From positions 1 through 39,844 of the forward strand of contig JAAZNF010000065.1 of the NCBI GenBank assembly GCA_012798435.1: a DNA stretch of 39,844 nt, given 5' to 3'. The position numbers and the translations under genes are program-made. This DNA is from Myxococcales bacterium. GTDB taxonomy: Bacteria > Myxococcota > B64-G9. The notes under the pieces are model-generated. The model ran no database searches. It saw only the letters and a list, made by a program, of their open reading frames with translations, and was not told the origin of the DNA. Below, piece after piece: positions 3,754 to 38,967 of the stretch (position 1 is the first letter of the stretch; every line of letters starts with the position of its first letter).

Positions 3754-3759
3754 GGGAAC

Positions 3760-5052: not shown

Positions 5053-5624
5053 GCGCCGCGCGCGAGTACTTCGCCGCCATCCGCCGCGCGGTCTTTTCGC
5101 TCGCCGACGGGCTGTCGGTGACGGTGTCCTACCTGCTGCGCCGGCCGGTGACCATCCAGTACCCTGACCGAACCGCGCAGCCGGTGCAGCGCCTGCTCCC
5201 CGAGCGCAGCCGGGGCCTCCTGGAAGTGGACGTGGAGCGGTGCACCGCCTGCGGGCTGTGCGCCAAGACCTGCCCCATCGACTGCATCGTGGTCGAGACG
5301 GGCAAGGACGCCGCCGGGGCGCGGCTGCATACCCGCATGGACGTGGATCTCGGGCGCTGCATGTTCTGCGGCCTGTGCGTGGAGGCCTGCCCCACCGGCG
5401 CCATCCGCCACAGCCGCGAGTTCGAGGGCGGCATGGCGCGCGTGGAGAACTTGCTGGTGCGCTTCCTCGACGCGCCGCGGCCGCCGGCGAAGCCGCCCAA
5501 GAAGGGCGAGGAGCCCCCGGAGAAACCCGCCGGCTCCATCATCCGCTCCCGCTTGCCCGGGGCCTTTGCGCCAGCGCGAAGGTGCGCGGGCGGTCCCGAC
5601 GCGAAACCCGGAGGCGCGGCGTGA
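5049..5624 (+). CDS. nuoI: NADH-quinone oxidoreductase subunit I (2 x 4Fe-4S)
   Basis: NuoI carries clusters N6a and N6b, which relay electrons to N2. Two 4Fe-4S motifs are visible in the 191-residue product: C65, C68, C71 and C75 followed by Pro, and C104, C107, C110 and C114 followed by Pro. Extra cysteine C79 follows the first motif. After residue 150 the protein continues with a Pro/Lys/Glu-rich tail of about 40 residues that the core family lacks. The start overlaps the nuoH stop as ATGA. In complexes without NuoEFG this subunit is one of the places where an alternative electron donor could dock. That is inference here. Confidence 0.95.
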   Translation: MSAAREYFAAIRRAVFSLADGLSVTVSYLLRRPVTIQYPDRTAQPVQRLLPERSRGLLEVDVERCTACGLCAKTCPIDCIVVETGKDAAGARLHTRMDVDLGRCMFCGLCVEACPTGAIRHSREFEGGMARVENLLVRFLDAPRPPAKPPKKGEEPPEKPAGSIIRSRLPGAFAPARRCAGGPDAKPGGAA

Positions 5625-10206: not shown

Positions 10207-11745
10207 TTGTTCGGCAACCTGGTCAGCATGCGCCTGCTCGCCCCCGCGGTGGTGCTGGGGGCGGTGGCGCTGTTTCTGTTCCTCGCGTCGGCCTTTGTGC
10301 GTCGGCGCGAGACCGGGCGCTGGCTCTTCCCGGGGGCGGCGCTCATCGGCCTGGCCGCGGCCCTGGTGACGCTGCTAGAGACAGTGCGCCTGCAGTACCT
10401 CCCGGACGGCTACAACTGCCTGCTTGGCGGTTGCACTGCGTTTCTGGGGATGCTGGCCTACGACCCGCTGGCGGTGTTCTTCCAGGCGCTCGTCATGCTG
10501 GCCGCGGTGGCGGCGGTGGTGCTCACGGTGGGAAGCCCGGCGGTGCCGCAGGCGCGGCGCGGCGAGTATTTCGGGTTGATTCTCGCCATGACGGTCGGCA
10601 TGTGCCTGCTGGTCTCCGCCAACCACCTGCTCATGCTGTATGTGGCGCTGGAGGCGGTGAGCCTGTGCTCGTACCTGCTCACCGGCTTCGACGCCAAGGC
10701 GCGCTCTGCCGAGGCGGGGCTCAAGTACGCGCTCTACGGCGGCGTGGCCTCGGCGGTCATGCTCTTCGGCCTGTCCTGGTGGTACGGGCTGTTCGGCAGC
10801 CTCAACCTGCAGAGCCTGCACTTTTGCATGCTGGGCTCGCCGGCGCTTTCGCCGGGCGAGAGCGGGGCGGCGGTGGTGGCGCTCCTGTTCATCCTGGCCG
10901 GCTTCGGCTTCAAGATCGCCGCGGTGCCCTTCCACCAGTGGTGCCCGGACGCCTACGAGGGGGCGCCCACGCCCATCGCCGCGCTCCTGTCGGTCGCGCC
11001 AAAGCTTTCGGGCTTCGCGGTGCTCCTGCGCTTCGCCTTCAACCTGCTGTTCGACCCGCGCGATCCCGAGACGCTGGCCTATGCGCCGGCGCAGCTCGAG
11101 TGGGCCCTGTGGGCCATCGCCGCGCTCTCGGCGCTGTCCATGACCATCGGGAACCTGGCGGCCATCCCGCAGAACAACCTCAAACGGCTGCTGGCCTACT
11201 CCAGCATCGCGCACGCGGGCTACCTGCTCATGGGTGTGGTCGGCGGCAGCCAGGGCGGCATCGCGGCGGTGTCTTTGTACGGCGCGGTGTACCTCGTCAT
11301 GAACCTCGGGGCGTTCGCGGTGGTGGCGGCGGTGGAGCGGGCCACCGGGTCGGAGGACCTGCTGGCCTTCCACGGTCTTGCGAAGCGTTCGCCGCTGCTG
11401 GCGGTCTGCATGGCCGTGTTCCTGCTCGCGCTCACCGGGTTGCCACCGACCGCCGGCTTCGTGGGCAAGGTCTACCTGTTCGCCTCGTTGCTCAAGGGTG
11501 GCGGGAGCCTGCCGGTCATCTTGGCGGTGGTGGGCATCGTCAACACCGTGATCTCGCTCTACTTCTACGCCCGGGTGCTGCGGGCCATGTTCCTACTGCC
11601 GCCCGAGCCGGGTCTTCCCGAGCGCATCGCCCCCGACGGGGCCGGCCTGCTCGCCGCCGCCCTGGCGGTACTGACCCTGGCCCTCGGCGTATTCTTCGGG
11701 CCGCTGGCCATGCTTGCCGAGTGGTCGGCGGGATTCGTGCGGTGA
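10207..11745 (+). CDS. nuoN: NADH-quinone oxidoreductase subunit N
   Basis: NuoN is the proximal antiporter-like proton pump. The 512-residue product has YVALEAVSLCSYLLTGFD with the TM5 glutamate, GFKIAAVPFHQWCPDAYEG with the TM7 lysine, and PQNNLKRLLAYSSIAHAGYL. I chose the TTG at 10207 because GGAGG ends five bases before it. An ATG at 10228 in the same frame would be too far from that site. Its stop overlaps the GTG start of the downstream hydrolase gene. Confidence 0.95.
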   Translation: MFGNLVSMRLLAPAVVLGAVALFLFLASAFVRRRETGRWLFPGAALIGLAAALVTLLETVRLQYLPDGYNCLLGGCTAFLGMLAYDPLAVFFQALVMLAAVAAVVLTVGSPAVPQARRGEYFGLILAMTVGMCLLVSANHLLMLYVALEAVSLCSYLLTGFDAKARSAEAGLKYALYGGVASAVMLFGLSWWYGLFGSLNLQSLHFCMLGSPALSPGESGAAVVALLFILAGFGFKIAAVPFHQWCPDAYEGAPTPIAALLSVAPKLSGFAVLLRFAFNLLFDPRDPETLAYAPAQLEWALWAIAALSALSMTIGNLAAIPQNNLKRLLAYSSIAHAGYLLMGVVGGSQGGIAAVSLYGAVYLVMNLGAFAVVAAVERATGSEDLLAFHGLAKRSPLLAVCMAVFLLALTGLPPTAGFVGKVYLFASLLKGGGSLPVILAVVGIVNTVISLYFYARVLRAMFLLPPEPGLPERIAPDGAGLLAAALAVLTLALGVFFGPLAMLAEWSAGFVR

Positions 11746-12590
11746 GCGAGGCGCGTCTTTGCGTGCTGGGGTCGGGCTCACGGGGGAACGCCTGTCTGCT
11801 CTCCTGCGGCGAACGCGACCTGCTCATCGACCAGGGGTTCTCGGGGCGAGAGCTCGAGCGGCGTCTTGGGCAGGTGGGACGCTCCATCGAACGGATCGGG
11901 GCGGTGGTGCTCACGCACACCCATGCCGATCACCTGAACCGCGCCTTCCTCAGAGTGATGCTCAAACAGGGCATCCCGCTCTACTGCCACCAGCAACACG
12001 CAGCGCAGCTCGCCCGCGACGCGCGTTTCATCCGGCTTGCCCGTGCGGGGCTGGTCCGGCCCTACCCGGGCCGCGGGCGTTTCGAGGTGCTGGAGCGGTT
12101 CGAGTTCGCGCCGCTGCGGCTGCCGCACGACTGCCCGCCCACGTTCGGATTCGTGATCGAGGCGGCGGCCCAGCCCCGGCCGGCGCGCCTGGCGTATCTC
12201 GCCGACCTGGGGCACGTCCCCGAAGGGGTCTTCGAGCGGATCTTGCAGCCGGGCGTCGACGTGTTGGCGCTCGAGTTCAACCACGACGAGGAGATGGAGC
12301 GCCGCTCGCGGCGTGCCGCCTCGCTCATCGAGCGGGTGCTGGGGCCACAGGGGCACCTCTCCAACCGGCAGGCCTGTGATGCGCTCGAGCGGTTGCTCGC
12401 GCCGGGAGAGCGGATGGCGCACAGCCTGATTCAGCTCCACATCTCCGAGGAGTGCAACGACCGCCGGCTGGCCTTCAGCAGCGCCGTGCGCGTGGTGGAG
12501 CGCATGGGTGGCGCGACCCGGGTCTTCAGCACATCCCAGGACGAGCCCGGGCGCGTGCATTATCTCTCTTGTGTTTCAGAAGAGCATTGA
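11742..12590 (+). CDS. MBL-fold metallo-hydrolase, YycJ/WalJ-like
   Basis: This is a soluble metallo-beta-lactamase-fold hydrolase of 282 residues. Key features are the N-terminal GSGSRGNACLL, the metal motif HTHADH at residues 59-64, and the later blocks LEFNHDEEM and GHLSN. All are characteristic of the YycJ/WalJ branch, whose members include putative exonucleases in DNA repair and cell-wall-linked operons. There is no signal peptide. The GTG start overlaps the nuoN stop (GTGA), so it is probably cotranslated with complex I, although no functional link is obvious. The exact substrate cannot be read from the sequence. Confidence 0.85.
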   Translation: MSEARLCVLGSGSRGNACLLSCGERDLLIDQGFSGRELERRLGQVGRSIERIGAVVLTHTHADHLNRAFLRVMLKQGIPLYCHQQHAAQLARDARFIRLARAGLVRPYPGRGRFEVLERFEFAPLRLPHDCPPTFGFVIEAAAQPRPARLAYLADLGHVPEGVFERILQPGVDVLALEFNHDEEMERRSRRAASLIERVLGPQGHLSNRQACDALERLLAPGERMAHSLIQLHISEECNDRRLAFSSAVRVVERMGGATRVFSTSQDEPGRVHYLSCVSEEH

Positions 12591-12596
12591 TATCCT
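12569..12596 (+). promoter_or_regulatory. weak candidate promoter for the 12603 gene
   Basis: TTGTGT (12569-12574), 16 bases, then TATCCT (12591-12596) straddles the end of the hydrolase gene. Transcription would begin close to the ATG at 12603, which has no visible ribosome site, so the message could be leaderless. The match is modest, and this is inference. Confidence 0.3.
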
Positions 12597-12602
12597 ACAT
12601 TC

Positions 12603-12815
12603 ATGCTCTACGGCCGGATCACGAAATTCGACGCGGCGGACGGGCTGGGAACGGTGATCCTGGACGATGGTCGCGAGATCCGTTTTTCGCTCACCGCCTG
12701 CGGCTACTTCCGGCCCGAGGTGGGAAAGAAGGTCAGGGTGATCTCGCTCACCGAGGGTTACGGCGGCCAGCCGAAGGCCACACTGATCGAGCCCGATCCC
12801 CGGGTGGGATCCTGA
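12603..12815 (+). CDS. small cold-shock-like OB-fold protein
   Basis: The 70-residue product reads like a shortened cold-shock/OB-fold domain. It starts with MLYGRITKFDAADGLGTVIL, where the glycine-rich turn occupies the place of the KGFGFI segment. A basic strand and a VGKKVRVISL strand follow. The aromatic RNP1/RNP2 residues of true CspA proteins are largely missing, so nucleic-acid binding is uncertain. No Shine-Dalgarno sequence precedes the ATG, and a promoter-like sequence ends just upstream. The cytochrome gene begins 17 bases after its stop. Confidence 0.7.
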   Translation: MLYGRITKFDAADGLGTVILDDGREIRFSLTACGYFRPEVGKKVRVISLTEGYGGQPKATLIEPDPRVGS

Positions 12816-12832
12816 GAGGCGAGGTGTTTCCA

Positions 12833-14191
12833 TTGAGGACTTCTACATTCCGGCATCTGGTGGTCGTGACGCTGAACCTGGCCTGGACGGTGCCCGCGCT
12901 GGCCCAGCCCAAGTGGGGCGACGCGGCGCTGGGCAGCCGCCAGTACGACGACTTCGAGCGGCCGCGCGCCTGCGCCGGCTGCCACCGGGAGTTCTTCCCG
13001 CAGTGGCAGATGTCCATGATGAGCCAGGCCTACACGCACGAGTGGGACGAGATCGAATACTTCGAGCTGGCCGTGCCGCACGCCGAGCGCGAGCCCAAGG
13101 TGGCCGGGGTCAAGGCCGGCTGCAACGGCTGCCACACGCCCATCGCCTTCCTGGCGGGCGACGTGCCGCCGCCGAAGCCGCAAAAACGCAGCCGGGCCAA
13201 CGAGTCGGTCTCCTGCGACGTGTGCCACACCATCTCGGGACGGGCCGAGGGAACACCGTTCAATTTCAGCTACATCTCATCGCCGGGCAAGACCAAGTAC
13301 GGGCCACGCGAGGGCGTGGAGTCGCCGCACCACAACACGAAGAAGCTCGAGCTCATCCGCCAGCCCGAGTTCTGCGGCAACTGTCACAACGAGCAGAGCC
13401 CGTACGGCATGTGGGTGAAGGCCACCCAGATCGAGTACGCCGAGGGCCCGTACCCCAAGATGGGCCTGCGCTGCCACGACTGCCACATGCCGGTCGCGAC
13501 GGGTCGGGTGGCCAGCATGTCGGGCGAGGACCTGCCGTTGCACCAGCACCTGTTCTTCGGGGCGCACGTCATGGCCAAGATCCGCGGCGCGGTCGAGCTG
13601 CGGCTGGTCCCCGACCGGCTCGAGGCCACTCCCGGCGAGAAGGTGAAGCTCACCCTGTACGCCTTCAACGCCAAGGCGGGCCACAAGATCCCCACCGGCT
13701 CGGTGGAGGATCGCGAGCTATGGGTCCACGTGGAGGCGGTGGATGCCAAGGGCAACCGCTACCACCTGCCCGTCGATCCCAAGGGCTTCCCCGGCGAGGA
13801 GACCACCATCGGCTCCAACCAGCCGGCCTGGTTCGATCTGGGGGTGGCCCAGGGGAAGGCGGACTTCGCGGGCATCCCGCGCGACGGCGTGCCCGAGGGC
13901 TCGCGCATCTACCGCATGGCCTACCTCAACCCCAAGGGCGAGATGACCATCATGCAGTGGTACACGGCATCGTTTGGCCCGGACTACCGCATCGGGCCGC
14001 TGGAGACGAAGACCGACAGCTACACCTTCAAGATCCCGGGCAAGGCTCCGCTGGGGCCGCTCACCGTGAAGGCCACGCTGTACTACCGCCTGCTGGTGAA
14101 ACCGGTAGGCGAGTACCTCAAGGTGCCGGCCGAAGAATACGAGGACCGGGTGATGAACGAGGCCGAGGCCCGGATCGAACTGGTCGACTGA
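12833..14191 (+). CDS. periplasmic pentahaem cytochrome c with C-terminal beta domain
   Basis: The 452-residue product starts with a signal peptide ending ALA|Q near residue 24. It carries five CxxCH haem-attachment motifs at residues 47, 97, 128, 181 and 214 (CAGCH, CNGCH, CDVCH, CGNCH, CHDCH). The haem part resembles the cytochrome c554/NrfB-type multihaem families. From about residue 245 the chain becomes haem-free and beta-rich (ATPGEKVKLTLYAFN, AGHKIPTGSVEDRELWV), as in some large periplasmic multihaem cytochromes. I prefer the TTG at 12833, eight bases after GAGG. A GTG at 12824 in frame is possible. The partner porin starts 12 bases downstream, which suggests an electron-transfer pair. 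Confidence 0.85.
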   Translation: MRTSTFRHLVVVTLNLAWTVPALAQPKWGDAALGSRQYDDFERPRACAGCHREFFPQWQMSMMSQAYTHEWDEIEYFELAVPHAEREPKVAGVKAGCNGCHTPIAFLAGDVPPPKPQKRSRANESVSCDVCHTISGRAEGTPFNFSYISSPGKTKYGPREGVESPHHNTKKLELIRQPEFCGNCHNEQSPYGMWVKATQIEYAEGPYPKMGLRCHDCHMPVATGRVASMSGEDLPLHQHLFFGAHVMAKIRGAVELRLVPDRLEATPGEKVKLTLYAFNAKAGHKIPTGSVEDRELWVHVEAVDAKGNRYHLPVDPKGFPGEETTIGSNQPAWFDLGVAQGKADFAGIPRDGVPEGSRIYRMAYLNPKGEMTIMQWYTASFGPDYRIGPLETKTDSYTFKIPGKAPLGPLTVKATLYYRLLVKPVGEYLKVPAEEYEDRVMNEAEARIELVD

Positions 14192-14203: not shown

Positions 14204-15430
14204 ATGCGAGGTCACCTGTGGTGGATCGCGCCGACGCTGGTCCTGATGTTGGGCGTGCTCTTGGGGCGGCCCTCGGAGGCCATTCCGGCCTTTGCTCGCA
14301 AGCACGAGTTCTCCTGCACCACCTGCCACGATCCCTTCCCGCGGCTGAAGGCCTACGGGGAGGAGTTCGCGGCCAACGCCTACGCCCCGTCGGATCAGGA
14401 GATGCCGCCGCGCTATTACACCGACGTGGGCGATGACCGGCTGTCGCTGTTCCGCGAGATCCCGCTGGCGCTGCGTGGCGACATGTATCTCGACTTCCAG
14501 CTCAACGGAAACGACACTGGCGACGGCTACCAGGACTTCAAGACGCCCTGGGTCATCAAGCTCATGTCCGGCGGCCAGCTCGCGCCCGACATCGGCTACT
14601 ACGTCTATTTCATGATGACCGAGGGTGGCGAGATCGTGGGGTTGGAGGACACTTTCATACAGTTCAACGACCTGTGGGGGAGCCCGGTGGACCTCATCCT
14701 GGGGCAGTTCCAGGTCTCAGACGTGCTCTTCAAGCGCGAGCTCCGGCTGACCTTCCAGGACTACCTGCCCATAAAGATCCGGCCGGGGCGCTCGGACATC
14801 GACCTCACCTACGACCGGGGCCTGCTGGTCTCGGCCGACTTCTCCTTCGGCCTGATGGCCTCGCTGTCGGTGACCAACGGCGCCAGGTTGAACTCGGCCA
14901 TCGACGACAACATGGACCCCGACTTCTTCAAGAACGTCATGCTGCGCCTGTCCCAGGAGTTCGGCCCGGCGCGGGTGGGGGCCTTCGGCTACTTCGGCAA
15001 GGAGCGGCGCACCATCACCGACGAAGCGACGGGGAATAGCCACCTCGGCACCAACGAATCGTTCATGTGGGGCGCGGATCTCACCCTGGATCTCAACCGC
15101 ACCACCCTGAACGCGCTCTACCTCCAGCGTCGGGACATCAACCCCTTGATGAAGCCGGCCAACGAGCCCTTCGCGCTGAAGAGCCACGGCATCATGGCCG
15201 AGGCGGTGACGCGGCTCTGGGGCGACCCCGGCCGGCTGTACGCGGTGCTGCTCTTCGACAAGGTGGAGAGCCAGGTGCCGGGGGCAGACCAGGAGAGCTA
15301 CACCGGCAACCTCACCTATCTGTTGCGCACCAACCTCAAAGTCATGGCCGAGTACACCTTCTACCGCATCCACGACGACGAGGTGGCCAACGAGCACCGC
15401 CTGCTGATCGGGCTCACCGGGGCCATCTGA
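14204..15430 (+). CDS. outer-membrane beta-barrel porin with an N-terminal haem c site
   Basis: The 408-residue product has a signal peptide (cleavage near SEA, residue 26) followed at once by FARKHEFSCTTCHDPFPRL. This places one CxxCH at residues 38-42 and then a conserved Phe/Pro-rich segment. The remainder alternates polar and hydrophobic residues with many aromatic strand ends and finishes in a short barrel-like strand, typical of an outer-membrane porin. The haem-then-barrel order is seen in a family of monohaem porins found near electron-transfer cytochromes. GGAGG precedes the ATG. Next to the pentahaem cytochrome it could form a periplasm-to-surface electron path. That role is inferred. 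Confidence 0.8.
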   Translation: MRGHLWWIAPTLVLMLGVLLGRPSEAIPAFARKHEFSCTTCHDPFPRLKAYGEEFAANAYAPSDQEMPPRYYTDVGDDRLSLFREIPLALRGDMYLDFQLNGNDTGDGYQDFKTPWVIKLMSGGQLAPDIGYYVYFMMTEGGEIVGLEDTFIQFNDLWGSPVDLILGQFQVSDVLFKRELRLTFQDYLPIKIRPGRSDIDLTYDRGLLVSADFSFGLMASLSVTNGARLNSAIDDNMDPDFFKNVMLRLSQEFGPARVGAFGYFGKERRTITDEATGNSHLGTNESFMWGADLTLDLNRTTLNALYLQRRDINPLMKPANEPFALKSHGIMAEAVTRLWGDPGRLYAVLLFDKVESQVPGADQESYTGNLTYLLRTNLKVMAEYTFYRIHDDEVANEHRLLIGLTGAI

Positions 15431-26100: not shown

Positions 26101-26138
26101 GAGCCGAGACAGCGAAACCCTCGGAGGTCACTCCATGA
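23133..26138 (+). CDS. anti-sigma factor fused to an AgmX-like domain and a degenerate vWA module
   Basis: The 1001-residue product has four parts. The first is an N-terminal zinc-binding anti-sigma domain with C3, H26, C30 and C33 (HxxxCxxC). The second is one membrane helix at about 83-105, then a low-complexity Gly/Ser/Asp-rich linker to about 365. The third, about 370-463, resembles the AgmX/TonB-C-type domain: IRQVIQRNLGPIQNCF, GTVTFTIQPDGNVSDV, and a W-FPVPKGGG-YPF ending with paired cysteines. The fourth, from about 486, follows the YfbK-type von Willebrand layout (GYFENTYLPGDPELEWLRERL; landmark), but the metal-site DxSxS is D590-L-T-S-V, so metal binding is doubtful. It would hold the sigma factor in the cytoplasm and read the periplasm. 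The ATG overlaps the sigma gene. Confidence 0.8.
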   Translation: MNCREIRERLAEGADEVRNQPDIAAHLGQCDACRAFAQKISEADRALRDLAAPRLDPALVDLTLRRVESTSQAPAPRRRLRFAWMFATGSVLLLLGGFSVLFLGRMRELVGVSANALAGNEESTRTTELHGHRNIKSFGVAPASGPRGGEGSGSGWGSGGAAARTQNGQGIGGLAATRDDDEVKDQEDTGKLSGEKDNGVERRSLELGIRSGKAAADRGPANAPAGQDQPDDGKAASTGMLAVLRQPPADRFVKLDASKPAMPAEQPAVEENKKEQEPVSELEQRRAQIIPIIRNPEPENQGKPVRNRAQSDLPSANDVTLAEKKNLPWRVSLARPAQERTGESLMDGKRGRRSPAGEVVATTPRDALVMGSLDKSAIRQVIQRNLGPIQNCFSRALQSNPNAGGKGTVTFTIQPDGNVSDVDGRFYDAELGRCVAAQVERWQFPVPKGGGVVRVTYPFVFKLAGDDAGEGGEQEAEELAEPPETPLEQLTFIPARGYFENTYLPGDPELEWLRERLSQLPGGVAFDLVDAIRPYRQPFDAPAADGLAVFLAADQKGVEGPARLTLQVGLKGSLRHAQRRSAVTAALVVDLTSVPDEEARRSLWTLADALAGEIQAGDRFFLVVAGVERPLKLKPAEFSSLAVRRALALALEEREAKGAQGSLEGALQAAYDAIRGEGGSDAPLGANLVLLLGAGQVGEDLDQLSLLAHTRAVDGIGLTTLGVGGAVDVEGLRSLALSGQGRFRVVKPGEERQTIEGELAASGSVVARAIRLRIRLAPGVKLISVLGSRSLDAVAADRVRQAERAIDQRVSRTLGIEADRGDDEDGIQIVIPAFFAGDDHVILLDVVVPGPGPVADVRARYKDLVNLKNAVSQASLVLAAGERPLDPLSINVQKNLLAFHLAQDLRRAAQSLDAGQAQEAAEGLRLATARIGWLLRRTPELQNDPELRRDQQALALALAELRERIDRGGDLSDLVITLAYTGRTKLPPRRAETAKPSEVTP

Positions 26139-29100
26139 AAACCTTTGTCCTGCTTTCCTTGACCTGGTTTGGCCTGTGGCCCCTGGTCGCCCGCGCCCAG
26201 GCCGCCGACGACGGCGGCGAGGTGCGCCTGCCGCTCAAGATGTTCTCCGATCTCGCGGCCAAGGCCGGAGATCCCAAGAAGCCGGTGGTGGCCCCGGCCA
26301 CCTCGTACGCTCTGGCGCAGGCCGAGGTGGAGGTGACGCTCCCGGAGGCCAGCGGCTCTCCCGCGAAGGTCGACGTCACGCTCACCGTCCACGTGCTCAC
26401 CGACGAGTGGACCAGCGTGCCGTTGCTCCCCGTGGGGACGTCGCTCTCCCGGGCCTTGCTCGACGAGGCTCCCATCGCCCTGTCAGCGCTGCGGGGCGAT
26501 CTGGTGTGGTCCACCAACGCCCGCGGTACGCACGTGCTCAAGCTCTCTTACGCCGCGGCGGTGCGGGCCTCGCTCGGGGGGCAGTCGCTGGTCCTGCCCA
26601 TCCCGGCGGCCTCGGCCATTTCCTTTACGGCTCGCATCCCCGGGTCCGGTCTCGACGTGGCGGTGATCCCCAGCGCGGGGTTCGAGACCTCCGAAGAAGA
26701 CGGGCGTACGGTGGTGCGCGCCGCGGTGCCGACCGCCAGCGGCATCCAGGTCTCCTGGCGCGTGCCGGCGGAGCGCAAGGTGATCATCACCTCGGCCCGC
26801 TACGACGGCGCTCAGAAGGGCAAGGTGGTCGCCTGGCGGGCGCAGTTTACGCTCCGCTCGCAGAGCTTCGAGAGCGTGACCGTACCCATCCTGGGGCGCG
26901 GCGTGGCCGTGGCGGACGCGAGGCTCGACGGCAAACCCGCCGTCGTGCTGGAGGAAGGCGAATTCCTGGTGGTCCAGGTGCAAGGGGCCGGCCGGCACGA
27001 GGTGATGGTGGACTTCGAGACCCCCGTCTCCGAGGAAGGCGGGCCGCCGGGCACGCGCCTATGGTTGCCCCGGCCGCCGCAGTCCACCTTCACCCTGAGC
27101 CTGCCCGGCAAGAAGGAGGTCAGCGTGCAACCGGCGGCCGGGGTAGATCTGGCCGTGCGTGGGGACCGTACCGTGGCCACCGTGCACCTGCCGCCCAGCG
27201 ACGAGGCGGTGTTCTCCTGGCCCGGGGCGCTGCCCGAGGCGGTCAAGGAGAACCTGCGCGCCAACGCCGAGGTGTACCACTTCGTACGCGCCGAGGAGGG
27301 TGTGCTGCAGATCGAGGCCATCGTGGCCTACGAGGTCACCCGCGGCGCCACCAACCGCATCAGCGCCTTCCTGCCCGCCGGGGTGGTGGTGAACCGCGTC
27401 ACTGGCGACGGCGTGACCGAGTGGCGCGCCGAGAAGCACCCCCGCGGCCAGCAGCTCTCGGTGTTCCTGGATCGGGATCTGCGCGGCGGCTACCGCTTCC
27501 AGGTGTCCTACGAGATCCTGCTCGGTGGCGGCGAGAAGGCCCCGGCGCAGGCCATCCCGCTGCTTCAGCCCGCGGAGGTGCACCGGCAGCGGGGCATGGT
27601 GGCCCTGCTCTCCGGGACCGAGCTGGAGGTGCGGCCGCAGAACGAGTCGGCCATGAACAAGGTGGGCGAGAACCAGATCCCGGCCTGGGCCCGCGAGGGC
27701 ATCTCGCAGGCGGTGGCCCACACCTTCAAGTACGTGGAGCCCAGCGCCTCGCTCAGCGTGGTACTGGCGCCGCCGGAGAAGAAGCGCGGCAAGTTCGACG
27801 CGGTGGTCGATACCCTGTTCTCGGTGGGCGACGGCGTGCTCAAGGCCTCGGCCTCGGTCGAGATCGCCATCAAGACCGGCAAGCTCATGGACCTGGAGCT
27901 TTCGCTGCCGGAGAACATCAACCTGATCGGGGTCACCGCGCCGTCGCTGCGCGAGCACAAGGTGTCCGGCGAGGATGGCAAACCCCAGACGCTGGCGCTG
28001 CAGTTCACCCAGGAGATGGAGGGCACCCTGCGCATCGAGGTGGCCTACGAGCGCGGCATCGGGGCGGACGTGGAGAAGGTACTGGTGCCGGCCATCCACG
28101 TCCCCGGCGCCGACATGGAGCAGGGGCGGCTGGCGGTGGAGGCACTGTCGGCGGTCGAGGTGCAGGCGCTGGAGTCCGATCGGGACACAAGGCTGCTGCC
28201 CCTGGACGTCCAGGAGCTGCCGCGCCAGCTCACCCTGCGCACCACCAACCCGGTGCTCATGGCCTACAAGTATGTGCATGCCGAACCGCCATTCGCGTTG
28301 ACCCTGGAGGTGCGGCGGCACGCCGAGCTCAAGGTGCAGGTGGCCAGCATCGACCATGCCAGCTACCAGACGCTGTTCACCCGCCACGGGTTGTCGCTGA
28401 CGCGGGTGAGCTACCAGATCCGTAACCGGCGCAAGCAGTTCTTGGCGGTGCAGCTGCCGGAGGGGTCCGAGCTGTGGTCCGCGGAGCTCGCCGGGCAGCC
28501 GGTGAAGCCCGCCGCGGGCGCCAAGCCCTCCCAGATCCTGGTCCCGCTGGTGAACTCCGCCGTGCCCTTCGCGGTGGAGATCGTGTACCGCACCACTGTG
28601 CCGAAGCTCGGCTTCGCCGGCTGGCTGCGCGGTTCGCTGCCGGTCCCGGACGTGGTCGAGGCGCAGAGCAGCTGGGACGTGTTCTTGCCGGATGACCTCG
28701 AGTACGGCCAGGTGGACACCAACATGCGCGTGGTGGTGGAGGCCGAGCCGACCTCGGCACAGCCCGACATGAGCGCTGCGGCACGCGCGCTCGCCGGGGA
28801 GGACACGGGGGCGGGCGAGACGCCGGGCGGCGGCGGCGGTGTATTGCCGCTGCGCATGGACGTGCCCACCCACGGCATCCACTTCCGCTTCGAAAAGTTG
28901 TTTGCCAACCAGGGCGAGGAGGACAGCCGCTTCTCCATCCATTACTCTACCGGGGCGGCGCACGGGACCGGCGGGCTGCTCTTGTTTTTTGCCGTGCTAT
29001 GGCTCGGGCTGGCGGGGCTCGGCGCCGCCGGGCTCGTGCGCAAGCGCCTGAGCCGCGTACTGGCGGCGCTGCTCTCGCTGGGCGCGGTGGTGGTGGCGGT

Positions 29101-29236
29101 GGTCTCGGTGGCGGTGCTCAATGCCTCGGTGGCCTGGGGGGTGGCCGGGGCCATCGTGGCCGCCGTCCTCGCGGTGGCGCTCAAGATCCTCCCGCGCCTG
29201 CGTCGCTCCTCCCCGCCACCGGTGACCGCCGCCTGA
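26135..29236 (+). CDS. large envelope protein with three C-terminal membrane helices
   Basis: The 1033-residue product has a signal peptide (cleavage near ARAQA, residue 22) and about 900 residues of beta-rich periplasmic sequence with no cysteine clusters. After a Gly-rich stretch (about 888-895), it ends with three membrane helices (about 948-1020) and a short basic tail. Repeating patterns such as V.LP.G....V and LRIEV.YER suggest stacked beta-sandwich modules. I do not recognise a named family. GGAGGT precedes the ATG, which overlaps the anti-sigma fusion as ATGA. Co-translation suggests it is the periplasmic partner or effector of that regulator. That is inference. Confidence 0.75.
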   Translation: MKTFVLLSLTWFGLWPLVARAQAADDGGEVRLPLKMFSDLAAKAGDPKKPVVAPATSYALAQAEVEVTLPEASGSPAKVDVTLTVHVLTDEWTSVPLLPVGTSLSRALLDEAPIALSALRGDLVWSTNARGTHVLKLSYAAAVRASLGGQSLVLPIPAASAISFTARIPGSGLDVAVIPSAGFETSEEDGRTVVRAAVPTASGIQVSWRVPAERKVIITSARYDGAQKGKVVAWRAQFTLRSQSFESVTVPILGRGVAVADARLDGKPAVVLEEGEFLVVQVQGAGRHEVMVDFETPVSEEGGPPGTRLWLPRPPQSTFTLSLPGKKEVSVQPAAGVDLAVRGDRTVATVHLPPSDEAVFSWPGALPEAVKENLRANAEVYHFVRAEEGVLQIEAIVAYEVTRGATNRISAFLPAGVVVNRVTGDGVTEWRAEKHPRGQQLSVFLDRDLRGGYRFQVSYEILLGGGEKAPAQAIPLLQPAEVHRQRGMVALLSGTELEVRPQNESAMNKVGENQIPAWAREGISQAVAHTFKYVEPSASLSVVLAPPEKKRGKFDAVVDTLFSVGDGVLKASASVEIAIKTGKLMDLELSLPENINLIGVTAPSLREHKVSGEDGKPQTLALQFTQEMEGTLRIEVAYERGIGADVEKVLVPAIHVPGADMEQGRLAVEALSAVEVQALESDRDTRLLPLDVQELPRQLTLRTTNPVLMAYKYVHAEPPFALTLEVRRHAELKVQVASIDHASYQTLFTRHGLSLTRVSYQIRNRRKQFLAVQLPEGSELWSAELAGQPVKPAAGAKPSQILVPLVNSAVPFAVEIVYRTTVPKLGFAGWLRGSLPVPDVVEAQSSWDVFLPDDLEYGQVDTNMRVVVEAEPTSAQPDMSAAARALAGEDTGAGETPGGGGGVLPLRMDVPTHGIHFRFEKLFANQGEEDSRFSIHYSTGAAHGTGGLLLFFAVLWLGLAGLGAAGLVRKRLSRVLAALLSLGAVVVAVVSVAVLNASVAWGVAGAIVAAVLAVALKILPRLRRSSPPPVTAA

Positions 29237-29437: not shown

Positions 29438-31483
29438 CTATGGGGCCAGGAAGAATTGGATCAGATCGGTGCGCATGGCCACCGTTCCGGCGCCGCAGTT
29501 CTGCAGCAGCATGGTGTGGGCGCCCTGCGGCACGGAGGCGCAGGCGCCCGGGTCGTAGCTCTTGAGCCGGCTCGACGGCAGGGCCAGCGTCGCGCCCAGC
29601 AGGGTCGCGCCCTCGGGCGGGAAAACCGCGTCGCCGGTCACCGTCTGCAGCATCAGGCGCTTGGTCCCGGCCGCGATGTCCGCCGCCAGCGTCCCGGCGA
29701 AGTTGATGGGATCGGCGGGGTCCAGCACCCACTGCGCCGTCAACAGGAACTGGGCGAATTTGGCATCCTGAGCCAGATCCTGCGGCGCGCAGCGCGGTGG
29801 CGTGGCGCGGCAGCAGGCGGCGTCGATCACCTGCGCGGCGCACAGGACGGGAGACAGCTCGGCCAGCAGCACCGGCGAACCGCCCAGAAGCTGCGCCAGG
29901 CCGGCCGCCGGGGCGTTGAGCACCGCGCGCCGGACATCCGGGCTGAGCGCGGTGAACACGGCGCCGGTGACCGAGCCGAGCGAAACCCCGAGGAAGAAGA
30001 TGCGGTTGGGGTCGATCGCCAATCCCGCGCAGGTGTCCTCGGTACAGTTTTTAAGCACCCGCACCAGTTGCATCAGGTCCGCGACCGTCTGGCGCAGGTT
30101 GTCCCGGGTGGCGAACAGGTCGCTGCTCATGACCGGGTAGAGCTGATCCGCGTTCGTCTGGCCGTTCTTCACCAGCACTTGCCGGCCGCCGGCCAGCACG
30201 CCGTCCATGGCCACCAGCGCGAAGCCCGCCGCCCCCAGGTTGTTGGCCAACGACAGCATGGCCAACTTGTTGGCCGAGGTCGCCTGGGCGGGATCGGTGG
30301 GGGTGAGGGGGTGCTGGAAGATCACCACCGGGTACGGCGGTGTCCGTCCGGCCGGCAGGCTGACCAGCACGGGCACCGTCTGACCCTGGCTCCCCTGCGG
30401 CGGTGGAGGGCTCGTCATGGAGAACTCTCCGGGGACCCACTCGGGCTGCCCGCTCTTGGGCAGGTAGGGCAGCTCGATGGCGGCCGCCTGCTGGAAGCGG
30501 GGCGAGACGAAGTCCGCCGAGATGAAGCGCGCGATCCCCGGGCAGTTGGGCCCGGCGCCGATGGCGTCGCAGGAGAGGCCGAGCGCCCCGAGGAACTGCT
30601 GCGGCGGCAGCGGCGGCACCGGCAGCGACGCGGCGGGGATGGTGACCTGGCGGGTGTCGAACGCCTCGCCGAGCAGCCCCAGGCGATCGCGGATGTCCGT
30701 GAGCGCCGCCTGGGTCGACTGGGTGTTGAAGAGCCAACCGAGCAGGATGTCCTGGCGCGGGATGGCGAGCGCGTCGGCCGCGGCCAGGAGCGGCTTGTGC
30801 GTCTCCTGGAGCAAGCGCAGCGCGAGATCGGACTGCGCGGTGGTGCTACGCACCAGCGTCCAGGCGTACGAGGGGAGGACCTCGAAGCCCTCGCGGTCCC
30901 GGATGCCGCGCAGCAGGATCATGCCGTACAGCCGGTCCGGCGCGAGCGCTCGCGGCACCTCGGGCCGATCCTGGAGCACGGGGAGGAACACCACGGTCGG
31001 CACCGGCACCGGCGCGGCGTCGCAGCCCTGGATGTACTTGGACGTCTGGGTCTGCACGGCTCGAACGGCGATGGGGTGTTGCAGGTCCGGCGTGCGCGCC
31101 GGGTCCGAGTACGGCCCGAGATCGAGAAGCAGGACGCGGTCCGTCAGCGACTCCTCGTCCAGCGAGCTGGTGAAGTACGCCTGGATGAAGCCCTGCAAGA
31201 AGGTCCCGTACCCGTCGAGCCGCTCGACGCGGCGCAGGGTCTCCTCCGTCACCGAACCCGCCACCAGGCACTGCGATGGCCGGAGGCTGAGCGTGGGCGG
31301 CTGCGTGTCGTTGACCGCCAGGATGTTCGGCAGGGGGAGGAGCGAGCGCGCGGGTTGATCCGGGTCCGGGGCGAAGTACGCGGTGGTGGTGCCGAAGGTC
31401 TGTCCGCCGTCGCCCCCGCCCTGGCTTTCCAGACAGGCCGCGAACAACAGAAAGGATAGATTGACGAGCAAGAGCTTTCTCAT
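29438..31483 (-). CDS. surface-lipase-like lipoprotein (VolA/bacterial virulence-factor lipase type)
   Basis: The 681-residue product has a lipoprotein signal with lipobox FAAC (Cys17). The N-terminal half fits the lipase N-domain pattern (LLPLPNILAVNDTQP, LDGYGTFLQGF, a VLLLDLG strand). The C-terminal half has an alpha/beta-hydrolase core with PYPVVIFQHPLTP and the nucleophile elbow G-V-S-L-G, serine at residue 501. The relatives I have in mind are surface lysophospholipases such as VolA. The catalytic Asp and His are not certain, although a late GAHTM is a candidate for the His. It is the last gene of the kinase-porin operon, 11 bases after the porin, with GGAGG before the ATG at 31483. Confidence 0.68.
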   Translation of the reverse strand: MRKLLLVNLSFLLFAACLESQGGGDGGQTFGTTTAYFAPDPDQPARSLLPLPNILAVNDTQPPTLSLRPSQCLVAGSVTEETLRRVERLDGYGTFLQGFIQAYFTSSLDEESLTDRVLLLDLGPYSDPARTPDLQHPIAVRAVQTQTSKYIQGCDAAPVPVPTVVFLPVLQDRPEVPRALAPDRLYGMILLRGIRDREGFEVLPSYAWTLVRSTTAQSDLALRLLQETHKPLLAAADALAIPRQDILLGWLFNTQSTQAALTDIRDRLGLLGEAFDTRQVTIPAASLPVPPLPPQQFLGALGLSCDAIGAGPNCPGIARFISADFVSPRFQQAAAIELPYLPKSGQPEWVPGEFSMTSPPPPQGSQGQTVPVLVSLPAGRTPPYPVVIFQHPLTPTDPAQATSANKLAMLSLANNLGAAGFALVAMDGVLAGGRQVLVKNGQTNADQLYPVMSSDLFATRDNLRQTVADLMQLVRVLKNCTEDTCAGLAIDPNRIFFLGVSLGSVTGAVFTALSPDVRRAVLNAPAAGLAQLLGGSPVLLAELSPVLCAAQVIDAACCRATPPRCAPQDLAQDAKFAQFLLTAQWVLDPADPINFAGTLAADIAAGTKRLMLQTVTGDAVFPPEGATLLGATLALPSSRLKSYDPGACASVPQGAHTMLLQNCGAGTVAMRTDLIQFFLAP

Positions 31484-33356: not shown

Positions 33357-35507
33357 TCACCGCTCCCCGGCGATGCCGCTCTTCTGCTTCTTTTCGATGC
33401 GCTGCAAGATGACCTGCAGGGCGCGCTTGAGCTCGTCCGCTGAAAACAGCCGGTCCAGTTCGACCGAGCGGTTGTGTCGGCGTCTGTGAAAAAAGAACTC
33501 CCACTGGCTGCGGGTCTTCTTCTCGTACTGGAGGGCGGGTGCCCGGACGCCGTGACAGCTTCCGCAACCGCGGTTGAGGACCTGCTCTCCGTTCCACGAG
33601 CCATCACCGCTGAGGTACGAAGGCTTGGCGGTATTTTCGGGTGGCTTGGGTTGAGGAGGCGGCGGAGGGGTCACCGCGGCGACCACGGGGCCGGGCGTGG
33701 CGGGAGGCTCCGGCGGGGGAGTCGGCGCGGGCTTGGGGGGAGCTGGCGCCTCGGCCACGGGCGTGGTTGTGGGTGGCGGCGTTGGCGCCGGAGGTTGCGG
33801 CGTGGGGTGCGGCGCCGGAGCTGGCTCGGGCGCCGGCGGAGTCTTGGCCTCGCTGTGGCGAACCTGCGCCGGTGGGCGATGAGGCCGGCGGGGGTGGTCC
33901 CGCCCCGGCGGATCGACGACCGGTGACGCGGGCGGCTGCGCGCTGCCGGGCCCTGGCACAGGGGACGGCACGGGCGCCGGGAGCGCGACCAGGTTCGCCT
34001 CCAGGCGCAGCATGCCGGCCTCCTGGCCCGCGGCCTGGGCCGAAAAGGCCACGTACCCGTCTTTACGCACCTCGATGGTGTGCATGGAGTTGGGCACGAT
34101 TCGCGTCTCGAAACCATGCTCTCCCGCCAGGCCGGCCTCGGTCCCGTCGATCCACACTGTGGCCGGAGACGGTCGGGCGACGATGATCAAATTGGGAGAG
34201 GAGTTCGGCGGGGCGGTTGGAGGCGGCGCCGATGTTTCCGGGACGCTCCGGTCGAGGACGAACCACTTGACCGCGGCAAAAGCCCCGCCCGCCAGGACCA
34301 GCAAAAGAGGCGCCAACCACAGCCAGCGCCGGGGCTTCCTGGGACCCGTCGCCTCGGCTTGCCCGGCAGGCGTCTGGGAAGGGGTCGAGCCGATGGCGGT
34401 GGTCCCCGGCAGGCTCGGCAGGTTGACCTGGGGCAGCGTCATCTCCCCGGTCTTTCCTGGAACCGGCGGAGGCGCCGGCGGTCGCTCGGCCATCTGGCGC
34501 GCCTGGGCCAGCAAGGTCTTTTCGAACTCCCGCCGCTTTTGAATGCGCGCCTTGAAGGTCTCCTGGAACCAGCGGCGCGCGTCGGGGGCCGGGGCCAGGC
34601 CGCCGTTCTTTTCGGCGCAGGCGGCCAGGCGGGTTGCCAGTTCCTCGCAGGTCTGGATGCGCTGCTCCCGGTCGGGGTGGGTGGCCGCGGCCACGATGTC
34701 GTCGCACTCCTTGGGGAGATCGCGTTCGAGCTGCGACGGCGGGATGAGCTTCTCGCTGCTGATGCGGTGGATCACCTCGCCGATGGTGACGTCGGGTTTG
34801 AAGTCGAACGGCACGCGGAGCGTGAGCATCCGCCACAGCACCAGACCCATGGCGTAGACGTCGACGCGGTGATCGATCTCGGAGAACTTGAAGCAGTCGG
34901 GCGCCAGGTAGGAGAGCTTGCCCTTGATCACGCCGGGCGAGGTGAGGTCCATCTGCACCGCCGCGGTCTTGGCGATGCCAAAGTCGATCACCTTGAGGTA
35001 GCCGCTGGAGTCGAGCATCAGGTTGTGCGGCCCCACGTCGCGGTGGACCAGGTTGAGCGGTTGCCCCTCGGCGCTCTTGGCGGTGTGGGCGTAGTGCAGC
35101 GCCTCGCAGGCCTGGATCAACAGCCGGGCCAGCACGGAGAGCGGCATGCGGCGCCGGGCGCGGGCCAGGGCGCGCGCCACGTACTCGAGGTTCTCCCCGT
35201 CGAGGTACTCCATGACGATGGCCACGGCGTCGCCCATGCGGCACAGATCGAAGACCTTCACTACATGGGGGTGATTGAGCTGGGAGACGGTGCGCGCCTC
35301 GCGCACGAAGAGCTTCACCGAGTCGTCCGCCTGCGAGATCTTGCCGGCCTTGATGCGTTTCACCACCACCAGCTGCTCGAAGCCGGCCGCGCCGCGCTGG
35401 ATGCCCAGGAAGACGTCTGCCATGCCGCCGCTCCCCAGCCGGGCCAGCAGCAGGTAGCGGTCCTTGATGTCGGTCTGGATGCGCAGGCTGCTGTTGACGT
35501 CAACCAT
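33357..35507 (-). CDS. Ser/Thr protein kinase with PEGA domain and C-terminal haem c motif
   Basis: The 716-residue product has an N-terminal kinase domain with GSGGMA (25-30), K50, E70, HRDVGPHN (155-162) and DFG (175-177). The usual APE is APD (202-204). A membrane helix lies at about 394-416, a PEGA domain at about 440-512 (IIVARPSPATVWIDG), and a Pro/Ala-rich linker at about 525-625. A 70-residue tail then contains GCGSCHG, a CxxCH at 648-652 (bases 33566-33552), on the outer side of the membrane if the helix crosses once. No Met follows, while H674 and H678 are possible second ligands. A haem there would make this a redox or haem-sensing kinase. The haem is predicted, not shown. Confidence 0.9.
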   Translation of the reverse strand: MVDVNSSLRIQTDIKDRYLLLARLGSGGMADVFLGIQRGAAGFEQLVVVKRIKAGKISQADDSVKLFVREARTVSQLNHPHVVKVFDLCRMGDAVAIVMEYLDGENLEYVARALARARRRMPLSVLARLLIQACEALHYAHTAKSAEGQPLNLVHRDVGPHNLMLDSSGYLKVIDFGIAKTAAVQMDLTSPGVIKGKLSYLAPDCFKFSEIDHRVDVYAMGLVLWRMLTLRVPFDFKPDVTIGEVIHRISSEKLIPPSQLERDLPKECDDIVAAATHPDREQRIQTCEELATRLAACAEKNGGLAPAPDARRWFQETFKARIQKRREFEKTLLAQARQMAERPPAPPPVPGKTGEMTLPQVNLPSLPGTTAIGSTPSQTPAGQAEATGPRKPRRWLWLAPLLLVLAGGAFAAVKWFVLDRSVPETSAPPPTAPPNSSPNLIIVARPSPATVWIDGTEAGLAGEHGFETRIVPNSMHTIEVRKDGYVAFSAQAAGQEAGMLRLEANLVALPAPVPSPVPGPGSAQPPASPVVDPPGRDHPRRPHRPPAQVRHSEAKTPPAPEPAPAPHPTPQPPAPTPPPTTTPVAEAPAPPKPAPTPPPEPPATPGPVVAAVTPPPPPQPKPPENTAKPSYLSGDGSWNGEQVLNRGCGSCHGVRAPALQYEKKTRSQWEFFFHRRRHNRSVELDRLFSADELKRALQVILQRIEKKQKSGIAGER

Positions 35508-36522: not shown

Positions 36523-38136
36523 ATGTTCCAGCCGGCGCAATTCGGCAAGTACTACCTCTACGAGCGCATCGCCGTCGGCGGCATGGCCGAGATCTACAAG
36601 GCCAAGATGTACGGGGTGGACGGCTTCGAGAAGAACATGGTGGTGAAACAGATCCTGCCGCAGTACGCGCGCAACAAGGACTTCATCACCATGTTCGTGG
36701 ACGAGGCCAAGATCACCGTCTCCTTGCAGCACGGCAACATCGTGCCGGTGTACGAGCTGGGCCAGATCGACGGGGTGTACTACCTGTCCATGGACCTCAT
36801 CGACGGCAAGAACCTGGGCGAGCTCCTCGACGCCGGCCTGGACAAGAACCAGCGCCTGTCGGTGCCCCACGCCCTGTACATCGCCTGCGAGATCCTGGCC
36901 GGGCTGGACTACGCCCACCGCAAGACCGACGAGCGCGGGAACCCCCTGGGCATCGTCCACCGCGATGTCTCGCCCCAGAACGTGCTGGTGTCCTACGAGG
37001 GCGAGGTGAAGATCGTCGACTTCGGCATCGCCCGCGCCGCCACCAAGGTCCACTCCACCCAGGCCGGGGTGATCAAGGGCAAGTTCGGTTACATGTCCCC
37101 CGAGCAGGCCATGGGCAAGGACGTGGACGCCCGCTCGGACGTGTTCGCCGCCGGCATCCTGCTGTACGAGATGCTGACGCTGGAGCGGCTGTTCTACAGC
37201 GAGACCGACGTGGTCACGCTGGACCGGGTGAAACGCGCCGACGTGCCCACGCCCTCGCGCACCAACCCGAACCTGCCGCCCCAGCTCGACGCCATCGTGT
37301 TCAAGGCCCTGGCGCGCCGCCCCGAGGACCGCTACCAGTCGGCGGGGGAGATGCGGCTGGCCATCTCGCGCTTTCTGTATGGGCTTCCGGTGGAGGCCTC
37401 GGCCAACACGCTCTCCGCCTACCTCAAGGGGCTCTTCCAGGCCGAACTGGAAGAGCGGCGCCGGCAGCCGGCCATCCGCATGCCGGCGGCGGCCCCGGCG
37501 GCTCCTCCGCGGGCCCAGCTCATCGCCTCGGCGCCGGCGATCCCGGCACCGCCGGCGGCACCGGCCCCGGCCGCACCCGTCCCGGCCGCGCCCCGCCCCG
37601 CCCCGAGACCGGCCGCACCCGCCGGACCGGAGGCGCTCTTCGGCGAAGGACCGCCGGGGTCGCCGGTCGGCCAGGCCCACGCCCCGCCGGCGGAGTCCGG
37701 TCTTCTGCTGCCTTCGTTGGAGGACGAGGCGGTGGACGACGACTTCAGTTTCAAGCGGGCGGCCCGGCGGGCCCGCTGGATCGGCATCGTGGTCGCGGTG
37801 GCGGCCTTGGCGCTGGGGGTGATCTTCCTGGGCGGCCCCGTGGTCCGGCTGCTCTCGGGAGACGGTGGCGGCACCAGCCGCCTGGCCAAGCAGAGCCTGG
37901 GCACGCTGGTGGTGCGCAGCCGCCCCACCGGCGCCTCGGTGTACTTCGGGAACCAGAAGGTGGGCACCACCGACGTCCGCATCGGGGACATCGACCCCAA
38001 GAAAGAATACGAGCTGGTGCTCACACTGGAAGGGTACCCGCCCTATTCGCGAAAGATCGTTCCGACGGATTTCAAACCGGAGGCGGAGATGACCATCCAG
38101 GTGTTCAAGGACTGGACCGCCGACGCGCTGAAGTGA
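36523..38136 (+). CDS. Ser/Thr protein kinase with PEGA domain
   Basis: The 537-residue product has a kinase domain with VGGMAEIYKAK (18-28), K42, E61, HRDVSPQN (146-153), DFG (166-168) and SPE in the activation segment. All key catalytic residues are present. A Pro/Ala-rich linker (about 320-395) leads to a membrane helix at about 417-443. An extracytoplasmic PEGA domain follows at about 459-530 (LGTLVVRSRPTGASVYF). The layout parallels the minus-strand kinase but lacks the haem tail. It starts an operon with a coiled-coil protein and a lipoprotein. Signals sensed by the PEGA part are unknown. Confidence 0.92.
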   Translation: MFQPAQFGKYYLYERIAVGGMAEIYKAKMYGVDGFEKNMVVKQILPQYARNKDFITMFVDEAKITVSLQHGNIVPVYELGQIDGVYYLSMDLIDGKNLGELLDAGLDKNQRLSVPHALYIACEILAGLDYAHRKTDERGNPLGIVHRDVSPQNVLVSYEGEVKIVDFGIARAATKVHSTQAGVIKGKFGYMSPEQAMGKDVDARSDVFAAGILLYEMLTLERLFYSETDVVTLDRVKRADVPTPSRTNPNLPPQLDAIVFKALARRPEDRYQSAGEMRLAISRFLYGLPVEASANTLSAYLKGLFQAELEERRRQPAIRMPAAAPAAPPRAQLIASAPAIPAPPAAPAPAAPVPAAPRPAPRPAAPAGPEALFGEGPPGSPVGQAHAPPAESGLLLPSLEDEAVDDDFSFKRAARRARWIGIVVAVAALALGVIFLGGPVVRLLSGDGGGTSRLAKQSLGTLVVRSRPTGASVYFGNQKVGTTDVRIGDIDPKKEYELVLTLEGYPPYSRKIVPTDFKPEAEMTIQVFKDWTADALK

Positions 38137-38154: not shown

Positions 38155-38967
38155 ATGGGATCCAAGCTGGAGAAGACCCAACTGGAATACGAGTCGATGC
38201 TGCGGGACCTGGGCGAGAAGGCCCGCATGGTGAACATGCTCGACAAGGCCAGCCCGGAGGCGCGCCAGGGCCTCGACCGCGCCCGCGAGAACCTCTCGGA
38301 TCGCAAGACCGAGCTCGACTTCATCCATAGCGAGATCGAGCGCCAGCAGGCGGAGCTGGCCGAGCGCAAGGCGAAGCTCGAGGCCGACATCGCCGCCACC
38401 CGCGAGGCCCTCTCCAAGACCGAGAAGAGCCTGGACGCCAAGAAGGGCAAGGTCGAGCCGCTCAAGAAGAGACTCACCGGCGCCGAGTACGACATCAAGT
38501 TCGTGCAAAAGTCGCTGGAGGAGGAGCAGCGCAAGCTCAAGGTGGCGGAAGAGAAGGAAGATCCCAAGAAGATCAAGGAGCACCAGGAGATCATCGCCCG
38601 CATCAAGATCGACTACATGCGCAGGCAGAAGGAGATCAACGACCTCAAGCGGCAGATCTCGGAATTCTCCAACCCCACCAAGTCCCTGGGGGGCTCCATC
38701 GAGGAGCTGGAGCAGAAGCTCGACGCCTTGGAGGAGGAACTGGAGGGTTTCGAGGAGTGCGAGGAGCAGCAGATCCTGGATGATCTGCGAAAACAGCACG
38801 CCGACAAAGAAAAAGAGGTTCGCATCGGCGAGGCGGCGGTGCTGGACGCCATGGCCGACCTGGGCGAGGATCTCTACGAGCGGCGCATCTCCCACCCGGT
38901 GCTCAACAAGTACTACGCCGACCTGGACGTGCTGGCCCGCGCCATCGACGAGATGCAGAAGAAATGA
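38155..38967 (+). CDS. long coiled-coil cytoplasmic protein
   Basis: The 270-residue product is almost continuous heptad-type helix with Lys, Glu, Leu and Ala (from about residue 5 to 235). Breaks occur near NPTKSLGG (about 176-183). It has no signal peptide, no membrane helix and no recognised domain. It lies 18 bases after the kinase, with GGAGG upstream of the ATG, so it is likely cotranscribed. It may be a substrate or scaffold for that kinase, which is a guess from position. Its stop overlaps the next start as ATGA. Confidence 0.78.
   Translation: MGSKLEKTQLEYESMLRDLGEKARMVNMLDKASPEARQGLDRARENLSDRKTELDFIHSEIERQQAELAERKAKLEADIAATREALSKTEKSLDAKKGKVEPLKKRLTGAEYDIKFVQKSLEEEQRKLKVAEEKEDPKKIKEHQEIIARIKIDYMRRQKEINDLKRQISEFSNPTKSLGGSIEELEQKLDALEEELEGFEECEEQQILDDLRKQHADKEKEVRIGEAAVLDAMADLGEDLYERRISHPVLNKYYADLDVLARAIDEMQKK

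Follow-up and report, generated by a model that had tools for sequence, protein, structure and literature searches.

A Hanks-type receptor kinase with a predicted periplasmic haem c domain is encoded beside an outer-membrane barrel gene in Myxococcota

The window analysed here, a stretch of 39,844 nucleotides spanning contig JAAZNF010000065.1 of a Myxococcales bacterium, encodes a serine/threonine kinase whose C-terminal tail is a predicted monohaem cytochrome c (Table 1). We propose that this protein is a Hanks-type receptor kinase with a tethered periplasmic monohaem c sensor, co-encoded with an outer-membrane barrel, in which the redox, ligation or docking state of the haem alters kinase activity, a reading to which we assign a probability of about 60%. 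Its domain order, the conservation of the tail and the family to which the tail belongs, the adjacency of the kinase and barrel genes and their co-occurrence across genomes are all read from sequence.

Table 1 Features of the haem kinase locus, in window coordinates.
Feature	Position	Strand	Basis
Haem c Ser/Thr receptor kinase gene (predicted haem), 716 aa	33357..35507	-	ORF and translation; orthologues of the same layout
Kinase domain, residues 21-288	34644..35447	-	Pfam PF00069, E 5.7e-39
Single transmembrane helix, about residues 395-416	34260..34325	-	hydropathy and charge flanks
PEGA domain, residues 438-492, weak	34032..34196	-	Pfam PF08308, E 2.8e-4; alignment
Pro-rich tether, residues 493-631, little conserved	33615..34031	-	sequence and alignment
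Predicted monohaem cytochrome c domain, residues 632-716	33360..33614	-	conserved in seven kinases; homologous to stand-alone secreted cytochromes
CGSCH haem c motif, residues 648-652	33552..33566	-	CxxCH invariant in seven kinases
His678, candidate distal haem ligand	33474..33476	-	invariant in 7/7 kinases and in most stand-alone relatives
DUF3373 outer-membrane barrel gene (putative), 606 aa	31495..33315	-	Pfam PF11853, E 2e-24; porin-like model; conserved neighbour
Lipoprotein alpha/beta hydrolase gene	29438..31483	-	weak Hydrolase_4 match; 51% orthologue by the G007 haem kinase; weak relative in G182

Membership of the Hanks family is indicated by a Pkinase fold with the catalytic Lys (VVVK), HRD (HRDVGPHN) and DFG motifs all intact. 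The match to the PASTA-type kinase family NF033483 of NCBIfam falls below its cut-off. The sole strong hydrophobic stretch spans residues 395 to 418 or thereabouts, with the sequence RKPRR on its N-terminal side. According to the positive-inside rule, the positively charged flank of a helix lies on the cytoplasmic side, and the catalytic domain is therefore predicted to be cytoplasmic and the remainder of the protein, including the CxxCH tail, periplasmic. The PEGA domain, at 21.1 bits, only just exceeds its cut-off of 20.8, and CGSCH is the only CxxCH in the whole protein. Pfam, hydropathy and sequence thus bear out the arrangement described in the initial annotation, namely a kinase, one helix, a PEGA domain, a Pro-rich linker and a CxxCH tail, and the helix with its charged flank does not predict the cytoplasmic tail that would have spoken against a haem. 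The same annotation pointed to APD in place of APE as a second deviation; the substitution is real but minor and without visible meaning, since orthologues have SPD, APD or APE at this position, and we rejected it as a meaningful change.

We looked for the tail in the eight further genomes of the order and then, with a profile of three tail sequences, in 195 genomes of the phylum (Myxococcota). Two of the eight contain a clear homologue (48% identity, E 1.5e-24 and 1.8e-23), in both cases on a kinase of the same layout, and the profile added four real cases combining a kinase, one helix, a linker and a CxxCH tail; a match in a further genome (G142, E 0.009) was dropped because no long CxxCH frame was found there. 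In total, the tail occurs on seven transmembrane Ser/Thr kinases from five families of the phylum, in separately assembled genomes. The window is a single contig of a draft genome, which might suggest an assembly or gene-calling artefact, or a CxxCH arisen by chance, but the recurrence of the same fusion in seven cases led us to reject this explanation, to which we would give almost no weight.

Invariant in all seven tails are both Cys and the His of CxxCH, a QW pair, one Phe, His678, a Leu and a Ser. Against the four closest orthologues, the kinase domain shows 50-59% identity and the tail 48-51%, compared with 25-40% for the linker, whose composition is biased. As the tail is approximately as conserved as the kinase domain, and the linker and PEGA domain are not, the conserved external feature is the CxxCH domain, and this level of identity, together with the invariance of the motif in seven kinases, argues that the motif is not there by chance. 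The PEGA domain is largely missing from the G007 and G185 orthologues, and was therefore rejected as the key periplasmic part; the G192 and G015 kinases have several PEGA-like repeats. Of the kinase-PEGA-CxxCH layout that the initial annotation suggested looking for in relatives, the kinase and the CxxCH tail recur in seven proteins, and the CxxCH is kept in every orthologue found. When the kinase itself was used as query across the phylum, the close orthologues (four or five) had E values of 2.1e-97 or lower and all carried the tail, the next kinase being at 8.8e-68. A scan of named genomes returned only four orthologues (two Myxococcales, one Deltaproteobacteria and one 'bacterium') and one stand-alone cytochrome, and a plasmid search with the window kinase gave no match over 80% of the protein.

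The tail of the window kinase, taken alone, gives a weak cytochrome match (E 0.027), under the Pfam cut-offs. A relation to known cytochromes c, which had been put forward for checking, is found by profile and through stand-alone relatives: nearly all PDB matches of a profile of the seven tails are c-type cytochromes, with quinohaemoprotein amine dehydrogenase at the top (E 1.7e-4). In the AlphaFold model (pLDDT 80, pTM 0.67), the tail forms an N-terminal helix (model residues 28-40) with the conserved CxxCH at its end, then a helix in the middle and a long one at the C-terminus, and Foldseek matches of this model are mostly to cytochrome c6 (best E 2.4, none significant singly). The weak score of the isolated tail would suit a Cys pair without haem, the tail being a cytochrome remnant with a structural or metal-binding role. 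A remnant would be expected to drift, however, whereas the CxxCH with its His, the QW pair and His678 are invariant in the seven kinases, and we regard this possibility as very unlikely. The cytochrome c assembly protein PF01578 is encoded in the genome of the window and in five of the six other genomes with a haem kinase; it was not found in G006, a draft of 610 contigs. The original suggestion of a haem c is thus favoured by the conserved CxxCH, the predicted periplasmic location, secreted monohaem relatives and an assembly protein in the same genome, and a covalent haem c on the kinase tail is very likely.

The stand-alone cytochrome from the scan of named genomes, which has a signal peptide and is 25% identical to the tail, comes from a Desulfuromonadales MAG, and tail-like matches were obtained in 18 of 297 genomes of the phylum of that MAG (presumably Desulfobacterota), in frames of 101-183 aa. 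Most of these relatives share C..CH followed by KT..QW.RFF.R.KH, S..L and YL..HAADS, and two of the three proteins scanned exceed Pfam cytochrome cut-offs. The tail is homologous to these small secreted monohaem cytochromes c. Of 18 testable loci, 15 have a DUF3373 gene as the immediate same-strand neighbour of the cytochrome gene, which it follows in 14 cases and precedes in one; of the other three, one has DUF3373 2.6 kb away and two have none. A chemoreceptor gene (HAMP and MCPsignal) directly follows the cytochrome and barrel genes at loci L089-L092, which suggests a connection between the pair and taxis signalling at these loci, and at L093 and L094 the ORF of similar size in this position is probably a chemoreceptor too. 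Multihaem cytochromes or molybdopterin oxidoreductases are encoded close by at further loci, so the cytochrome-barrel pair keeps company with respiratory and signalling genes. At the window locus the signalling enzyme is fused onto the cytochrome, in contrast to the separate neighbouring gene at the stand-alone loci.

In the window, the DUF3373 gene starts 41 bases past the kinase stop codon, with a purine-rich GGGAAAGGA ahead of its ATG. The product of this gene is modelled (pLDDT 63) with a signal helix, a coiled coil at residues 45-136 and some 20 strands, and the model matches porins (best E 7e-11); in one survey, DUF3373 is listed among the putative pore proteins of the outer membrane, with 18 strands (PMC4827864). 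Six of the seven haem kinase genes are directly beside a DUF3373 gene (the window, G006, G007, G182, G192 and G015), that of the window and five of the six others lying directly upstream of it; in G185 both genes are present but unlinked. DUF3373 was found in 14 of the 195 phylum genomes, comprising all seven with a haem kinase and another seven from a single further family, and in no case did a haem kinase occur without it (Fisher's exact p = 1.8e-9, uncorrected for relatedness). Six genomes of the same family that are without the tail also lack DUF3373. Since a cytochrome lies beside the barrel gene in one group, and a kinase-cytochrome beside it in another, the fusion appears to have arisen between working partners, and we take a barrel-pairing cytochrome to have become fused to a Ser/Thr kinase. 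The hydrolase gene that follows is a possible third gene of the operon, although this link is weak; in G007 (L043) a hydrolase gene (3166-5253) is beside the haem kinase gene and a second related copy (11033-12000) lies about 6 kb away. In the other family, the two loci sampled (L121 and L122) encode strong DUF3373 proteins (E about 1e-146) near a cytochrome with eight CxxCH motifs and not near a haem kinase.

Because the kinases have lost the His of the HAADS motif and there is no conserved Met, the foremost candidate for the distal ligand is His678, which would give His/His ligation. The same two features could point instead to a sensor of gases (NO, CO or O2) whose sixth site is open or exchangeable and which is independent of electron transfer through the barrel, and haem c sensors that bind NO are carried by other types of receptor (PMC12889525). 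The invariant second His suits bis-His ligation, however, and the link to the barrel indicates a redox partner, so that we consider a gas sensor quite improbable.

Under the proposed redox, ligation or docking mechanism, the long flexible tether would let the cytochrome dock on the barrel complex or on periplasmic cytochromes, or exchange electrons with them, and the redox, ligation or docking state of the haem would change, across the single helix, how the kinase associates with itself and how active it is. In the haem kinases, 154-342 residues separate the helix from the CxxCH. Linkers of this length can span a periplasm of usual width, and docking at the outer membrane is therefore a better fit than a rigid relay. 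A long disordered tether would be a poor carrier of conformational change, and the signal would therefore need docking or clustering; docking of the tail on the barrel is what we infer. This same long tether, together with the stand-alone relatives, which look like common electron-transfer cytochromes and are encoded next to barrel and respiratory genes, could also mean that the haem serves only electron transfer or docking while the kinase senses another cue, such as barrel assembly or envelope stress. The fusion of carrier and kinase in every orthologue is hard to reconcile with a haem state irrelevant to signalling, and this alternative is in our view unlikely. A more ambitious version of the proposed mechanism, which is possible but doubtful, has the kinase's own haem taking part in electron transfer at the barrel, so that electron flow across the envelope would be read out directly as phosphorylation, and jointly has the cytochrome-barrel pair linked to chemoreceptors in other phyla.

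In a kinase tree, for which sampling was limited, the five close haem kinases, from three families, share a clade (support 100/100), and those of G015 and G192 form a second (99/97). The two clades join in a single group (97/89) that also takes in one tail-less kinase, whose gene adjoins that of G015. The tree requires two changes of the tail label, which one gain and one loss (at L047 5302-6759) or two gains would explain equally well. The more divergent haem kinases (L046 5037-7595 and L047 2910-5501) have several PEGA repeats, and a related tail-less kinase gene adjoins the L047 2910-5501 gene. The window itself contains, on the forward strand, a second Ser/Thr kinase gene with a PEGA domain and no CxxCH (36523-38136), followed by a gene for a coiled-coil protein (38155-38967).

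Among known systems, outer-membrane porin-cytochrome conduits of the MtrAB type and Cyc2 couple a c-type cytochrome to an outer-membrane barrel. The haem kinase locus likewise encodes a barrel with a c-type cytochrome, given the adjacent DUF3373 gene and its porin-like model, but differs in having another barrel family, a single predicted haem and no multihaem partner in the operon. Elsewhere in the window, a secreted protein (14204-15430, forward strand) has one CxxCH (CTTCH) near its mature N-terminus and, after it, a region that looks like a barrel (weak Porin_4), so that cytochrome and porin are arranged much as in Cyc2; the gene for this protein is directly preceded by one for a pentahaem c-type cytochrome (12452-14191, forward strand) with five CxxCH motifs and matches to Cytochrome_C7 and C554, the listed GTG start of which is probably too early. 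A secreted 1033-aa protein with no Pfam match is encoded at 26135-29236 (forward strand), overlapping the end of an upstream ORF of 1111 aa. The stand-alone cytochromes beside DUF3373 share with the kinase tail a homologous domain and the same barrel neighbour, but are free secreted proteins with no kinase fusion and an additional His in HAADS.

PASTA-type kinases such as PknB and Stk1 are similar in having a cytoplasmic Hanks kinase, one helix and an extracytoplasmic sensor, which in the window kinase consists of a PEGA domain, a Pro-rich tether and a cytochrome domain instead of PASTA repeats. The nearest Hanks-type kinase with an iron centre is mycobacterial PknG, which has a rubredoxin-like domain (PMC8546545) and likewise joins a Ser/Thr kinase to an iron domain of redox type. 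PknG is, however, cytoplasmic, with its rubredoxin iron site adjacent to the kinase, no haem and no membrane tether, and the Pfam scan of the window kinase shows no rubredoxin-like Cys4 domain beside the kinase. A 2026 preprint describes the sCache_heme family (DUF3365/Tll0287, with GSU0582 and GSU0935 of Geobacter), in which a periplasmic covalent haem c is found on transmembrane signalling proteins and the CxxCH was acquired from cytochromes (PMC12889525). The window kinase resembles these proteins, as described there, in its predicted periplasmic haem c on a transmembrane signalling protein. They have a Cache fold, however, and their outputs as given in that text are histidine kinases, chemoreceptors, GGDEF/EAL proteins and cyclases, with no Ser/Thr kinase named (PMC12889525), whereas here a whole small cytochrome is placed on a Hanks-type kinase; Pfam scans of the window kinase and of its tail gave no match to PF11845 (sCache_heme).

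No haem c domain on a Hanks-type kinase was found in the open-access literature searched, and none is named in the passages searched of a 2025 review of bacterial kinase regulation (PMC12189002) or of the same preprint (PMC12889525). The combination of a cytochrome with a Hanks-type kinase is therefore likely, but not proven, to be new, the search having covered open-access literature, and its parts are of known kinds.

Most bacterial Ser/Thr receptor kinases lack a known signal. In the window kinase, the proposed sensor can be recognised as a redox protein and its genomic partner is known, which makes a signal, be it haem redox state, a ligand or docking state, directly testable. If our reading is correct, haem c sensing would extend to Hanks-type kinases, and DUF3373, a family of unknown function, would gain a role in the redox biology of the envelope. 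The fusion suggests a direct link from electron transfer at the cell envelope to protein phosphorylation.
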